Shown: piece after piece, positions 698 through 6,848 of the stretch
Position numbering within the stretch: the stretch's first letter is position 1
Layout: every line of letters begins with the position of its first letter
From: JALXCG01 sp026991065 [NCBI: Gemmatimonadota bacterium]
GTDB taxonomy: Bacteria > GCA-2686955
Assembly: GCA_026991065.1 (NCBI GenBank)
Contig: JALXCG010000263.1
Coordinates: forward strand, 1 to 6,848
Length of the DNA: 6,848 nt
Direction of reading: 5' to 3'
Made by a program: the position numbers and the translations under genes
Notes under the pieces: generated by a model
Databases searched by the model: none
What the model was told of the DNA's origin: nothing
What the model saw: the letters and a program-made list of their open reading frames with translations, nothing else

Positions 698-1088
698 GCT
701 CACCAGCTCCTTCTGAGTTCTTGCCATCCTCTTTCATTGCCTTCAGCAACCGCGACAACAGCACCGCCGCTTGCAAAGCCAGGCGCTCCACCATCCAATA
801 CTGCTCCACCGGCAATTTGGCCAACTTTTCGGCACGCAAGGTCTCTCCCAGGAGTCCTTCGGTGCAGCGACTCAACGCCTGCAGCAGCCGCCGGTCGGCT
901 TCATCCTTGCGCTCCAGGAACAGTACGGTTTGCAACAACCCACTGCGTCGCAGTAGATCGGGTAGCCTCTCGTACTTGCGCTCTGCGTCTACGTCTCCAG
1001 AGCTATTGGCCGCCTCCGGCAGCAAGATCTCCACCATCCGCTGGGCAAGCGTCTGTTCGTTCAGGGGCGTCCTGTCTTGCGATTTCAT
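675..1088 (-). CDS. cmr5: Cmr5, type III-B small subunit
   Basis: Small all-alpha subunit of the Cmr complex. In this family several copies stack along the Cmr4 filament, line the target-RNA channel and do not cut RNA themselves. The 137-residue length is normal. The conserved core is 'KYERLPDLLRRSGLLQTVLFL' (about residues 38-58), corresponding to the family pattern 'Y.s.a.klP.lIr.nGLlqalaFl', followed by a helical half with 'EQYWMVERLALQAAVLLSRL' around 95-114. The last 17 or so residues (KNSEGAGEHERESAE) are polar, acidic and probably disordered. The ATG overlaps the cmr4 stop as ATGA, and GGAG sits 8 nt upstream inside the last codons of cmr4. Its 3' end overlaps the start of cmr6 by 23 nt. 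The assignment is supported by core motif, size and operon position. Confidence 0.95.
   Translation of the reverse strand: MKSQDRTPLNEQTLAQRMVEILLPEAANSSGDVDAERKYERLPDLLRRSGLLQTVLFLERKDEADRRLLQALSRCTEGLLGETLRAEKLAKLPVEQYWMVERLALQAAVLLSRLLKAMKEDGKNSEGAGEHERESAE
707..712 (-). promoter_or_regulatory. Shine-Dalgarno for cmr6 (decides start at 697)
   Basis: AAGGAG lies 9 nt upstream of the ATG at 697 and only 3 nt from the alternative in-frame GTG at 703. This favours the ATG. The site is inside the cmr5 coding region. Confidence 0.7.
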
Positions 1089-2119
1089 TGACTCATCTCC
1101 ACCCGGGCGCGCCCCAGCCCAATCGAAGACTTGCCCCCAAACCGAAGCACATCTCCCCCCTTCAAGCTCTTCTGCAACACCTGTAGATTCTTCTTCGCTG
1201 GAGAGACAATGCGGTTGTTGGACCGCTCCTCCTCTTCAGCGTCCGCCGCGCCCAGTTCCTCCGGAGTGCGGGAAAGCTCGGAACGGCGCGCCCAGATCGC
1301 GCCGTATAGCAAGGTCTCCGTGGGCAGGTGCTCCTCCGTCCAGGAGCCACTGGCAGCCGCAGTGCCCGAGTCGCCATCAATCTTCACCCGGGCTCGAACC
1401 TCCAGAGCGGTTTCCGCCAGGTGTCGCATCGTGGTGTCACTGACCAGCACAAAACGCTCCACGAAAAACTTCCGGCTGGTTTCGTCGTTGGGCCATACCG
1501 CCTTGGCGATCCACTCCGCCCACTTGTCCATCCGCGGGTTGGACTCTGCGTCCAGCAGCATCTCCTCCAGAAAAATGCGCCCCTGCACTGCCGCTGTCTG
1601 CGCACCCTTCTGTTCAGGATTCCGCTTCGCCCATAGCACGGATGGCGTATTCTGAGTCACGCAGTTTATTCCGCCCGCCATCTTCGGAACCGGCGGAACT
1701 GCGGCAATGGCACTCTGCGCACCGCGCGCCAGTTCCACATCCCGGGTCAGTCGCAACAACATGTAGGGCGATGCCACCCAGGCAAACATGCCCACCAGAG
1801 AACGAACCGGAAGCGCCAGAAGGTGGGCATCCCCCACCACCAGGCCGCCTCTTCCGGCACTGGCTTGTTCCGTGTCCGGACCGAACGCGCGCCAAACCGG
1901 ATCCTCCACGTTTTTTTTCGCGTCGGAGGTCTCGTTGTCCTCGGCAAGACTCCGCAAGACTCCCTTGATGGAAGATCCCGGTAGAAACGGCAATCCTGTC
2001 GCCACCTCCCGTGCCGTGGGGAGATTGATCTCCCCCACCCCTTCGCCAGTTCCCGCGTGCAGCGGCGTGAGCGCGTGAAAGAACAGAACTCGCCCGAGTA
2101 ACGGGGATTCATTGCTCAT
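1085..2119 (-). CDS. cmr4: Cmr4, backbone RAMP subunit with Asn at the slicing-Asp position
   Basis: Repeated backbone subunit of the Cmr filament (Cas7 group). In characterised systems it cuts target RNA every 6 nt using one aspartate. This copy has 344 residues. Residues 14-56 show the family signature: 'FHALTPLHAGTG' (14-25), 'LPTAREVATGLPFLPGSSIK' (33-52) and 'GVLRSL' (53-58). The glycine-rich 'LRFGGKSSIGLGRARV' near the C-terminus (325-340) is the usual RAMP G-loop. As I recall it, P. furiosus Cmr4 reads LTPTHPGSG...VVDQPIQRE. The alignment is ungapped, placing H21 on H15 and N32 (codon AAT, 2026-2024) on catalytic D26. That predicts little or no target slicing. The start is ATG at 2119, which forms ATGA with the cmr3 stop and has AGGAG 8 nt upstream; the longer frame back to 2266 only adds shadow sequence from cmr3. 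An A8 run encodes K68-K69-N70. Function is certain as backbone; loss of catalysis is inferred. Confidence 0.96.
   Translation of the reverse strand: MSNESPLLGRVLFFHALTPLHAGTGEGVGEINLPTAREVATGLPFLPGSSIKGVLRSLAEDNETSDAKKNVEDPVWRAFGPDTEQASAGRGGLVVGDAHLLALPVRSLVGMFAWVASPYMLLRLTRDVELARGAQSAIAAVPPVPKMAGGINCVTQNTPSVLWAKRNPEQKGAQTAAVQGRIFLEEMLLDAESNPRMDKWAEWIAKAVWPNDETSRKFFVERFVLVSDTTMRHLAETALEVRARVKIDGDSGTAAASGSWTEEHLPTETLLYGAIWARRSELSRTPEELGAADAEEEERSNNRIVSPAKKNLQVLQKSLKGGDVLRFGGKSSIGLGRARVEMSQ
1097..1100 (-). promoter_or_regulatory. Shine-Dalgarno for cmr5
   Basis: GGAG lies 8 nt upstream of the ATG at 1088, within the last codons of cmr4. The arrangement of GAGATG, two bases apart in sequence, then TCAATGA is nearly the same as at the cmr3/cmr4 junction. 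Confidence 0.65.
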
Positions 2120-3489: not shown

Positions 3490-5461
3490 GGACGACCTCC
3501 ACCGCTGAAGCAAATTCCACTGCCGGGGCCGCGAGGCGATGCGCCAGCAGCAACTCGTTCACATAATTCTCAACCTGCGACCACTCTTTCCAGTCCGCAA
3601 CCCGGCGGACAACCTCGTCCGGCAACTTTCTTTCCCGCCGGCTGAACGCCTGCCGCACGCGGGCCCGCGCCAACAACACCGTTTTCTCCCCGGCGGCACC
3701 ATACTGCTGGTAGAGCGCCTGCAGGTTGTGCGCCAATGTCAAGCCCAGCTCGCGTTCCGCCAGCCCACCTGCCCAGGTTCTTTGATCCGCTACGAACGCC
3801 CGCAGCGGCCCAGCACACACCCGGTCGCTGCCGGCGCGCGGCATCTCGCGCACCTCCACCCAGCCCTCGGCCGGCTGGCCCTTCAGGCAGGCCGCCTGGC
3901 GTTGTTCCTTGGCAGAGTCCAGCGCCTGCCCCGCCATCCGCCGCACAGAGCGCAGATCAAATTTCACGTGGGTCACCGCCACACCGATTGAAAGAGAAGT
4001 CGGCAGGTCCGGCAGCAACTGCGCAAGCGGCTCCGCAACCTCTTTCCGGTACAGATTGCTCAACCGCTCAATCGCTGTCAGCAGACGATCCAGCGGCAGG
4101 TAGGCCAGCCCCTCATCGCCCCCTACATAGAATGCGCAGCCCCGCACCTCCCCCGAGAAGAGCAGTTCCGCCGCCCGGTCCGCGAACCGGTTCAGGTTCT
4201 TTTGCGCATCCTGGAACCCCTTGCGTGGCAGTCTCTCCAGCACAGACCCCAACCGGTCCCCATCGAACATCAACAGCGCGTAATAGGGCGAAGGCACACC
4301 AAAGCCGCTATGAAGGCGGTGAAGCAAACCTCTCAGCGCCCTGATCGTTCCCCAAGGCACCTCACTCCTTCCAATCCGGCGAACGCCGAACTCGGTTACC
4401 AGCGCATCCAAGCCGCCATCAAAGAGCAGCGAAGCATCAAACGGAAACAACGAACTCCCCGGCCCATCCCACTCATCCCAGGCCGGGGTGGCCAGGATCG
4501 CACTGGACCAGGAAGAAGCATCCTCGTGCGCCGCGCGCCTTAGCCGATCCGAAATCTGCTTCAGGCAGTTGAAACCATGCTTACTGGTGGCCACTCGGCG
4601 CAGCCAGGGGTCAGCGGTCACTCGGGCCAGCGGCGGGAACGGCAGCCGAGGGAGACTGGTTCCGCTTCTTTTTGAGAACAGGGCCAGACGGCGCGCCAGG
4701 CCGATCGCGTCCAACTGCTCGCCACGTCGCACCCCCGCCCGCATCCGCCAGAGTTCAAACTGCCGCCGGGCCTGCGCCTGCAACGCCTGGGGGTCCCGGA
4801 ACACCGAATCACGCCCCGGATCCAGGTGACTTTTTGGGCGGCCGTCTACGCTGAACCCCGCGTCACAAAAGAGACGTGTGTTCTTGCTCGCCGCCAGCAG
4901 CGCACGCGCCCGGCCCAGCCACTGCTCATGCGATTCTCCCGGCTCGGCGCGACACCAGACGGCATAGAATTCAACAAAATCTCCGCTGCGGACCGCGGCC
5001 AACTGGCGCTTCAGCGCGTCGGGGTCAACAAACGACTGGAATCCCTCCGACGTGAGCGTTCTTGCGTTCTCCTCCAGCCGCTCCGCGAACCACTCACACG
5101 CTGTCTTCCGCGCCGATTCCAGCAACTCCCGTACTTGGGCTTCCGTTCCCGCCACCTCGGCCAACACCTTGTTGGGACAGGCGGCCACATACCGCTCCGG
5201 ACGCGCCGCCTCCCCCGCCGCCGGGGATCCCGCACGCGCCCCCCGTCTCCATCGATCAGGCAGTGGCTGCAGCAACTCAACTCCCGGCAGGGTCTGGGCC
5301 CCCTTGCTAAGGTGCTCGGCCACCACTTCGGTCACTCCTGACAGCCACTGGGATCCCCACCACAGATCCCTGCTGCGCCGTCCCGCACCAATGAAGACCT
5401 GTACCGGCCCCAGAGAAACAGCCACCAGATAGCGTTCCGAAACACGCTCAGCAACACTCAC
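3482..5461 (-). CDS. cmr2: Cmr2 (Cas10), HD-less signalling subunit with a GGDE palm motif
   Basis: Large subunit of the Cmr complex; in this family the palm domain makes cyclic oligoadenylate when target RNA is bound. It has 659 residues against about 870 for the HD-containing P. furiosus protein. It begins directly with 'YLVAVSLGPVQVFIGAGRRS' (11-30) and 'RDLWWGSQWLS' (31-41), the 'GPVQ.FI..aR..rDLW.gS..lS' segment. No HD motif precedes it. 'SKNTRLF' (192-198) and 'RPKSHLDPGRDSVF' (208-221) follow; no CxxC zinc pair is seen. Palm motifs are 'MFDGDRLG' (398-405) and 'FYVGGDEGLAYLP' (444-456), with 'SIGVAVTHVK' (491-500) and 'AKEQR' (517-521). The usual GGDD reads GGDE; the acidic pair is kept, so synthesis is plausible but unproven. 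The start is GTG, forming GTGA with the cmr1 stop and preceded by AGGAGG; the next in-frame Met is only at residue 240. The C-terminal D4-like helical part (about 550-645) looks complete. Confidence 0.96.
   Translation of the reverse strand: MSVAERVSERYLVAVSLGPVQVFIGAGRRSRDLWWGSQWLSGVTEVVAEHLSKGAQTLPGVELLQPLPDRWRRGARAGSPAAGEAARPERYVAACPNKVLAEVAGTEAQVRELLESARKTACEWFAERLEENARTLTSEGFQSFVDPDALKRQLAAVRSGDFVEFYAVWCRAEPGESHEQWLGRARALLAASKNTRLFCDAGFSVDGRPKSHLDPGRDSVFRDPQALQAQARRQFELWRMRAGVRRGEQLDAIGLARRLALFSKRSGTSLPRLPFPPLARVTADPWLRRVATSKHGFNCLKQISDRLRRAAHEDASSWSSAILATPAWDEWDGPGSSLFPFDASLLFDGGLDALVTEFGVRRIGRSEVPWGTIRALRGLLHRLHSGFGVPSPYYALLMFDGDRLGSVLERLPRKGFQDAQKNLNRFADRAAELLFSGEVRGCAFYVGGDEGLAYLPLDRLLTAIERLSNLYRKEVAEPLAQLLPDLPTSLSIGVAVTHVKFDLRSVRRMAGQALDSAKEQRQAACLKGQPAEGWVEVREMPRAGSDRVCAGPLRAFVADQRTWAGGLAERELGLTLAHNLQALYQQYGAAGEKTVLLARARVRQAFSRRERKLPDEVVRRVADWKEWSQVENYVNELLLAHRLAAPAVEFASAVEVVHE
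3496..3500 (-). promoter_or_regulatory. Shine-Dalgarno for cmr3 (decides start at 3489)
   Basis: GGAGG lies 6 nt upstream of the ATG at 3489, inside the end of cmr2. The upstream in-frame ATG at 3513 has no comparable site, so 3489 is preferred. Confidence 0.75.
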
Positions 5462-6848
5462 CGCCCTCCTCCCTTCTGGCCACCTCGCGGTTTCCGTTGG
5501 GAAACAAAACCGTTTCGATCCAGGAAGGCAGCAATCGCATTCTTGTACCTTCCGGAACTCGTCTCAGCCCCCGACGCACTCTGTTGGTACGCCACCTCCG
5601 CCACCGCCCGGCCGTCCTTCCCGCCGGCTGGTGCATCCAATACCATGCACGCCTCCTGAGGAACCGAGTTCCAGAACACCAGCGCGGTGGCCCGCACATC
5701 CCGCCCCCCCTCACCAAACGCCATCGGCCGCAGAATCAGCGGTGATGGCAGCCGCTGGCGTAGCTTCACCTTTCCGCCACAGCCCCCATCCAACTCCTTG
5801 GGGACAACCTTGCCGTTGGCTCTGGAGTCATTCCGATCGGCATGCTTGAACTTGATCAGCAGCGGCATACCAAACGCCGCGCGGGGAGTCCGCAGCGGCG
5901 GGGCGAACTCGGCGGGCAATGGATGATCATATCGCCTCGCACCACGCAGCCACTTGAAAGAGTTGGGCTCCGGCCAGCGGCTCACACCGGGGTGTGCGCC
6001 TTTCCCCAGGCGCGCCGACCGTTGCCGAAAATCGGCCAGCGCATCCAGAGAGTTGCCCAGCGCCTCCTCGCCGCTGGGCATCGGTCGTGTCTGCCAAAAA
6101 AACGCATTCTTCTCCAGTCGGGGCCAGGCCACTTCAACCGACGACTTCGTCCTGCCATCCAGCTCGTCAAGCCGATCAAGCCAGTCAAGCAGCTCTTCCG
6201 GTGAGTCAAACCCCTCAAGGGCCGCTTCGTCGACCGGCAACCCCTCGGGCCAGATCACTCGCTCGATCCGCCCATCCAGCGCCAAGGCGCCGAAGCCGCG
6301 CCGGGTTCGGGCCCCCACACCGCCGAAGTTGACCCACAGAAGGAGCGCATGGATAACCCGGGCGAACTCCTTGTGTTGCTCGTAGCCGACCGGTGGCCGC
6401 TCTCCCTTCTTATCAGCGGGCCGGGGATTCAGCATGAGTTCCACCTGAAACCGCAGGCCACTTCTTAGCGACGCTGTTTCCAACTGTCGGCGACCCATCT
6501 GCGCCGCCCGCCGCAACTCCTCCTGGCTTCGCTGCAGTGGAAACAGCCCGTAGCCCACCTTCCGCCCAAGCGTCCAAACAGGTACCCCGCTCAACCTGCC
6601 GCTGCGTCCCTGCTTATGCGTGCCGGCCGGAGCCAGCCGCCCGGGGTCAATCACCGTGACCCGTTGCCGAACCATGCCCGCCAGCGGCGATGGCCCATTG
6701 TCGTCTTTACCCTTCTCCCCCCGAGGCTCGCTCTTCCCGCCAGCATCGCTCACCTTGTCCGCCTCGCTCACGCCCCCCCACACAAACCGTTCCAGGCGCC
6801 GCAGGACCATCGGATCCGTGATATGCGGCGCCTGGAACGGTTTGTGTG
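5458..6848 (-). CDS. cmr1: Cmr1, type III-B RAMP subunit (5' end missing)
   Basis: Double-RAMP head subunit of the Cmr complex that binds near the crRNA 3' end and helps capture target RNA. An ATG at 6810 would give 450 residues, but the frame stays open to the last base. The N-terminal family motif 'lTP.f..G.d......RpssirG.lRfWWRa' is absent. The reading begins at what matches the next block, 'RRLERFVWGGVSEADK' (4-19, compare '.eeE..lwGs'). I infer that about 50-80 residues are lost beyond the edge and that the ATG at 6810 is internal (residue numbers here count from it). Supporting motifs are 'NFGGVGARTRRGFGAL' (161-176, the Cmr1 'GGlGaRsRRGfGsl' signature), 'RTPRAAFGMPLLIKF' (307-321) and 'RQRLPSPLILRPM' (351-363). 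Residues 21-42 are a polar, Lys/Glu/Gly-rich linker. The C-terminus is basic and glycine-rich (QRKPRGGQKGGGR). The stop overlaps the cmr2 GTG. The outermost 25 bases are part of a fold-back and may not be genuine coding sequence. Confidence 0.93.
   Translation of the reverse strand, partial: HKPFQAPHITDPMVLRRLERFVWGGVSEADKVSDAGGKSEPRGEKGKDDNGPSPLAGMVRQRVTVIDPGRLAPAGTHKQGRSGRLSGVPVWTLGRKVGYGLFPLQRSQEELRRAAQMGRRQLETASLRSGLRFQVELMLNPRPADKKGERPPVGYEQHKEFARVIHALLLWVNFGGVGARTRRGFGALALDGRIERVIWPEGLPVDEAALEGFDSPEELLDWLDRLDELDGRTKSSVEVAWPRLEKNAFFWQTRPMPSGEEALGNSLDALADFRQRSARLGKGAHPGVSRWPEPNSFKWLRGARRYDHPLPAEFAPPLRTPRAAFGMPLLIKFKHADRNDSRANGKVVPKELDGGCGGKVKLRQRLPSPLILRPMAFGEGGRDVRATALVFWNSVPQEACMVLDAPAGGKDGRAVAEVAYQQSASGAETSSGRYKNAIAAFLDRNGFVSQRKPRGGQKGGGR
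5465..5475 (-). promoter_or_regulatory. Shine-Dalgarno for cmr2 (supports GTG start)
   Basis: The run AAGGGAGGAGG lies in the last codons of cmr1 and ends 3 nt before the GTG at 5461; its inner GGGAGG gives a 6-nt spacing. This is the strongest purine run at any junction here. It supports the GTG start, which has no nearby ATG alternative. Confidence 0.75.
6779..6848. repeat. Perfect 25-bp inverted repeat ending at the last base
   Basis: Arms at 6779-6803 and 6824-6848 are exact reverse complements over 25 bases, with a 20-base spacer (6804-6823) containing GGATCC. The structure lies inside the open cmr1 frame rather than between genes, and its outer arm ends precisely at the window end. A hairpin exactly at a sequence end, in place of the expected Cmr1 N-terminal motif, is best read as a fold-back artefact of assembly or amplification. 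A natural hairpin or an invertible or recombined end is the alternative. Confidence 0.9.

Follow-up and report, generated by a model that had tools for sequence, protein, structure and literature searches.

In the window, the whole 6848-base stretch of DNA analysed here, a type III-B Cmr4 backbone protein carries Asn32 in the column of Asp26, the target-slicing residue of P. furiosus Cmr4. Judged by analogy with published mutants, we favour, at a probability of roughly 55 %, a III-B operon whose backbone would be unable or nearly unable to slice, with RNA recognition and signalling proceeding without slicing.

Operon and register of the Cmr4 block

The window is the entire contig C263 of one MAG (4.14 Mb, 902 contigs, 83.8 % complete), whose phylum is represented by two genomes in the collection searched. 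Its minus strand holds a nearly complete type III-B operon, arranged as cmr1, cas10, cmr3, cmr4, cmr5, cmr6 (Table 1). The window contains cmr genes only, and the contig terminates on both sides of the operon. The six frames, which make up the type III-B gene set of cas10 with cmr1, cmr3, cmr4, cmr5 and cmr6, form one overlapping run with no internal stop or frameshift, and the cmr3/cmr4 and cmr4/cmr5 overlaps both read ATGA. The NCBIfam cut-offs were passed by Cmr4 and Cas10 only; Cmr3, Cmr5 and Cmr6 scored below them and Cmr1 gave no NCBIfam match, but all four were matched by both PADLOC and Pfam, the latter recognising Cmr1 and Cmr6 only as RAMPs. The cmr1 frame runs open up to the end of the contig; the gene therefore probably lacks its 5′ part, and its true start is probably not the ATG at 6810. 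At this contig end, two 25-nt arms separated by 20 nt (6779–6803 and 6824–6848) form a perfect inverted repeat, a fold-back that is probably an assembly fault spoiling the 5′ end of cmr1. Within cmr3, a 63-nt in-frame tandem duplication with 75 % identical copies was observed at 2863–2988.

Table 1. Features of the window and, below them, Cmr4 genes of other loci lacking the slicing Asp (positions within the respective record).
Feature	Position	Strand	Remark
cmr1	5458..6810	-	PADLOC Cmr1 1.2e-8; frame open to 6846
cas10/cmr2, 659 aa	3482..5461	-	TIGR02577 83.4 bits, cut-off 79.4; Pfam Cmr2_N 12-124, Cas10-Cmr2_palm2 393-521
cmr3 (Cas5-like subunit), 457 aa	2116..3489	-	Pfam Cas_Cmr3 6.8e-31
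cmr4 (Cas7 backbone subunit), 344 aa, complete	1085..2119	-	TIGR02580 198.4 bits, cut-off 87; Pfam RAMPs 5.7e-24
His21 codon, conserved His of the block	2057..2059	-	position computed from start 2119
Asn32 codon AAT, column of P. furiosus Cmr4 Asp26	2024..2026	-	target-slicing residue
cmr5 (Cas11 subunit), 137 aa	675..1088	-	PADLOC Cmr5 4.4e-8; Pfam Cas_Cmr5 1e-4
cmr6, 3′ end cut by contig end	2..727	-	PADLOC Cmr6 1.9e-14; frame open at base 2
Cmr4, L199	413-1198		cyanobacterium
Cmr4, L200	392-1168		cyanobacterium
Cmr4, L201	398-1210		cyanobacterium
Cmr4, L202	386-1165		cyanobacterium
Cmr4, L204	410-1207		cyanobacterium
Cmr4, L206	365-1282		cyanobacterium
Cmr4, L023	7962-8954		Glu at slicing column; Thermogemmatispora group
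Cmr4, L091, L092, L099, L102, L108			Glu at slicing column; Thermogemmatispora group
Cmr4, L043, L155			Glu at slicing column; unrelated single cases

The cmr4 frame begins with an ATG overlapping the cmr3 stop, and its product belongs to the Cmr4 family by its match to TIGR02580, which spans profile positions 2–283 of 283. In phmmer, HAGTGEGVGEINLPTARE of the window and HPGSGTELGVVDQPIQRE of P. furiosus Cmr4 (4w8w, 4wnz, 4rdp) align without a gap and place Asn32 on Asp26; the block from His21 over Asn32 to Arg37 and Glu38 is also gapless against the Cmr4 of 3x1l and 9x25. Both the exchange and the gapless register proposed by the sequence-only reading were thus confirmed, and by its slicing column this Cmr4 falls outside the Asp-bearing RNases. 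Misalignment is not a reasonable source of Asn32. An AlphaFold2 model of Cmr4 from a 5-sequence alignment (mean pLDDT 43.7, residues 1–111 below 50) was too poor and was left unused. The remainder of the gene is, as that reading had described it, intact and rich in motifs, with His21, Arg37, Glu38 and Glu263 all retained.

The slicing column across Cmr4 proteins

The Cmr4-like ORFs compared here come from three sources: whole genomes recovered with TIGR02580, genome contigs, and plasmids (14 of 36 records). There were 206 matches above 75 bits; after removal of four in copies of the window and of identical or contained ORFs, 171 distinct ones remained. The MAFFT alignment of these with the query and a P. 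furiosus fragment has 173 rows, of which three are fragments without the block; L149 contributes two rows because its gene is broken into two ORFs, and one of these rows lacks the block. Four further places over the cut-off stand outside the count (G853:C70, G789:C2, G811:C466 and G071:C115, the last two being fragments without the block). The alignment includes a divergent group of 25 rows, which we take to be III-C-like.

The sequence-only reading had expected Asp at this place, and across many Cmr4s this is what the column of P. furiosus D26 holds: Asp in 153 of the 170 rows with the block, Glu in eight, a deletion in seven and Asn in two. Asn within a canonical block is found in the window only (1/170), the second Asn row, L016, having a divergent block (GNLNLIFRDP) of unsure register. 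His occupies the His21 column in 166 of the 169 rows that have a residue there, and the Arg37 and Glu263 columns are conserved in 170/170 and 169/169 rows.

Searches for a second canonical Asn gave none in about 1,070 whole genomes (a number that overlaps between searches, with the Cmr4 family profile), none among four relatives of the window Cmr4 in genome contigs, none in two genomes of its own phylum and none in the 14 plasmid records read of 36 matching. Viral contigs yielded none (alignment query A2) and phages gave no match. Among the titles and abstracts listed by searches of the open-licence PMC literature, none mentions a natural Asn at the Cmr4 slicing site.

A quick tree of 145 rows places the query in a group of 32 (SH-aLRT 96) and, with weak support (80), next to L044, L007, L147, L070 and L083. 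The best near-full-length match, L147, is 43 % identical over 288 positions and has Asp at the slicing column; among the eleven closest rows, two short fragments included, Asp occurs ten times and Glu once. As the window is a lone MAG contig with a best near-full-length match of 43 %, there is no sign that Asn is selected.

A single G-to-A transition is enough to turn GAT into AAT, and a one-base sequencing, assembly or strain-mixture error could have produced it in a MAG of 902 contigs and 84 % completeness with a fold-back at the contig end. However, that repeat is more than 4.7 kb distant, a neighbouring block position is also off-family (Thr35, 3/170), and a second active-site change lies more than 2 kb away in Cas10, where the palm motif reads GGDE. 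With Thr35 and GGDE the divergence of the window therefore exceeds one base, and we regard such an error as improbable.

Expected effect on slicing and known systems without the Asp

A slicing-defective backbone is the best reading of Asn32, because the identical change in the same column, P. furiosus Cmr4 D26N, is reported to abolish target RNA cleavage in vitro with DNase activity remaining (PMC7192623); slicing by the window complex is probably absent or very slow. Similarly, D26A is described as inactive in the Vibrio metoecus complex VmeCmr, which is slow even in its native form (PMC8682760). In B. fragilis, Cmr4 carrying D27A is reported to retain target cutting at a lower speed (PMC10600005), and "dead" may therefore mean "slow". 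The lost slicing predicted from the sequence alone is thus backed by the first two mutants and softened by the third.

The B. fragilis result also speaks for residual or rerouted cleavage, in which the site is slow or metal binding passes to Glu30, located two residues upstream. An acid at this position is indeed rare, with Glu in two (the query and one other) and Asp in one of the 170 rows with a letter there. However, the other two rows with an acid, L101 and L110, keep the slicing Asp, so an acid at position 30 is not tied to Asp loss and Glu30 as a substitute is not supported. P. furiosus D26N, reported without target RNase activity (PMC7192623), speaks against this explanation as well, and we consider either variant rather improbable.

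The P. furiosus mutation was engineered, in a complex whose Cas10 has an HD domain and GGDD, whereas the Asn of the window is natural and stands beside a GGDE Cas10 in which no HD domain was found: no HD family matched, and the Cmr2_N match begins at residue 12 (Pfam). P. furiosus complexes with an intact palm motif produce cOA, and the D26N strain is reported as obtainable only with HD and Csx1 also inactivated, for which the authors suspect lethal over-activity (PMC7192623). VmeCmr, found with NucC, also has an HD-less Cas10; it keeps the slicing Asp and cuts slowly, whereas the window has Asn. Its authors report slicing so slow that they expect long-lived cyclase activity (PMC8682760). The plasmid-borne III-B system of Thermus thermophilus, whose Cmr4 is 38.4 % identical, likewise has an HD-less Cas10 in HB8 according to the published description, and TtCmr cleaves target RNA (PMC8376896). 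The HC11 block, GAIDLPIAREK, contains the Asp, in contrast to the Asn of the window.

The slicing Asp is also absent from cyanobacterial III-B Cmr4s, by a one-residue deletion rather than by substitution. These are the proteins of Synechocystis 6803 and 7338, Nostoc C052 and 7524, Picosynechococcus 7002 and Microcystis NIES-2481, which together with L009 make up the seven deletion rows. The sequence HTGGTTQEGNLLGIARE is shared by five of the six, while Microcystis has the similar HTGGSADEGNLMGIARE, one residue short; when phmmer aligns the Synechocystis 6803 protein to P. furiosus Cmr4, a gap of one residue falls next to the P. furiosus Asp. The four cyanobacterial Cas10s read (L210–L213) all have GGDD, and three of them an N-terminal HD string. 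A Microcystis paper, on a strain outside the sequences compared, supposes in its published account that Asp residues are responsible for cutting by Cmr4 (PMC11855584). A Thermogemmatispora III-B group is also non-Asp at this column, but its Glu keeps the acid.

L023 and L179, both with a non-Asp Cmr4, have a GGDD Cas10 as opposed to the GGDE of the window. A general pairing of Asp loss with a changed cyclase was considered and rejected for the cases read, as L023, L179 and the four cyanobacteria keep GGDD. For types III-G and III-H, the catalytic Asp of Cas7 is reported as not conserved (PMC12669027), and together with the changed Cas10 palm reported for them this resembles the window. These types are, however, described with an HD domain, an inactivated cyclase and predicted DNA cleavage, whereas the window has six III-B cmr genes and an HD domain was not found in its Cas10. 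With the gene set cmr1–6, the operon does not belong to III-G or III-H. Given the cyanobacteria, the Thermogemmatispora group and, as reported, III-G/H, Asp loss is therefore not unique to the window. Judged by alignment, III-B backbones lacking the slicing Asp also occur in well-known organisms, whereas the window stands apart as one case that arose by substitution.

On the current view, target slicing sets the duration of the type III response, because it ends the activation of Cas10. The natural Asp-less complexes, i.e. the window, the cyanobacterial group and the Glu group, would be evolution-kept systems for asking what slicing does in the cell, and ready-made non-slicing RNA sensors.

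Cas10 divergence, decay and signalling

The palm motif of the window Cas10, residues 447–450, is GGDE. Its last position is Asp in 22 of 22 other Cas10s (relatives, or neighbours of non-Asp Cmr4s), and positions 158, 257, 282 and 450 are all altered where these 22 are identical. GGDE is among the motifs listed in PMC11229360 for loci whose effectors are known, a list of variants that are probably active.

Deviation at conserved columns was compared for five subunits. Cas10 deviates at 29/89 columns (rank 1 of 21; next 19/85) and Cmr3 at 19/52 (rank 1 of 21; next 16/50). Cmr4 is moderately deviant (9/55, rank 3 of 24; L024 7/56; median 0.073), and Cmr1 (14/47, rank 4 of 22) and Cmr6 (4/29, rank 5 of 22) are not top outliers. 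By region, Cas10 deviates at 3/20 columns in residues 1–150, inside the range of 0–8 of other Cas10s, at 8/21 in residues 151–385, at 12/39 in palm2, where the next most deviant protein (L022) has 10/40, and at 6/9 in the C-terminal part. The divergence excess of Cas10 extends beyond the cyclase.

These numbers bear on the possibility that the complex is relaxed or decaying, the Asp-to-Asn exchange in Cmr4 and the GGDD-to-GGDE exchange in Cas10 being stages of that decay. Decay would then be too recent to have closed the reading frames, and other III-B loci would serve the host. The first ranks of Cas10 and Cmr3 and the four changed Cas10 positions fit this view, as does the Cmr4 end branch of 1.5 against a median of 0.52 in the 145-row tree. 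The same MAG also holds further III-B pieces: C527 (L027) encodes a Cas10 with GGDD, Cmr3 and a Cmr4 with Asp, C822 (L028) a Cmr4 end and Cmr6, and C619 (L029) a Cmr4-like end, Cmr5 and Cmr6, followed by a melibiase-like gene. Against decay stand the six overlapping genes free of stops and frameshifts, the moderate deviation of Cmr4, and L044 and L007, which retain Asp at end branches of 1.27 within the same weakly supported group. Further, Cas10 residues 1–150 lie within the range of the others and palm2 is close to that of L022. We see decay as possible, but clearly less probable than the slicing-defective operon. The sequence-only statement that this is "not simple decay" keeps the open frame and preserved motifs of Cmr4 on its side; with GGDE and the most deviant Cas10 of 21, it is now held less firmly.

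If the slicing-defective reading is correct, the complex would retain crRNA and target RNA binding, and bound target would remain uncut, or nearly so, at the 6-nt steps. Cas10 might then stay on as long as the target stays bound, because slicing is one of the ways in which such complexes switch Cas10 off. Without an HD nuclease, the complex would act through a nucleotide signal, presumably synthesised by the GGDE palm domain and sensed by effectors whose genes lie elsewhere. Here we infer an active GGDE cyclase and a prolonged signal, the step from no slicing to a longer signal drawing on published work. A backbone that binds target RNA without destroying it, as proposed from the sequence alone, is supported as to the loss of slicing; that proposal left out the expected effect, longer Cas10 signalling.

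A more far-reaching suggestion, which we consider doubtful, is a natural sensor-only III-B system combining D to N, an absent HD domain and GGDE, in which loss of the off-switch would be balanced by a weaker or different signal. If true, this balance would explain how the host can live with an exchange that P. furiosus, with HD and Csx1 intact, apparently cannot bear.

As to possible readers of a signal, the Csx1_CARF profile gave no match in the MAG, a result that is weak at 84 % completeness. Among ten flanking ORFs from seven related loci, three are signalling-linked, namely SAVED (L175), Csx3-AAA (L174) and CorA (L177); the other seven are not, five having no match, one being an AAA ATPase and one Cas1. 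PMC10600005 connects CorA with SAM-AMP signalling in III-B systems. The CorA-like gene (L177, 6912–8990) adjoins the III-B operon of G100, which groups with the window Cmr4.
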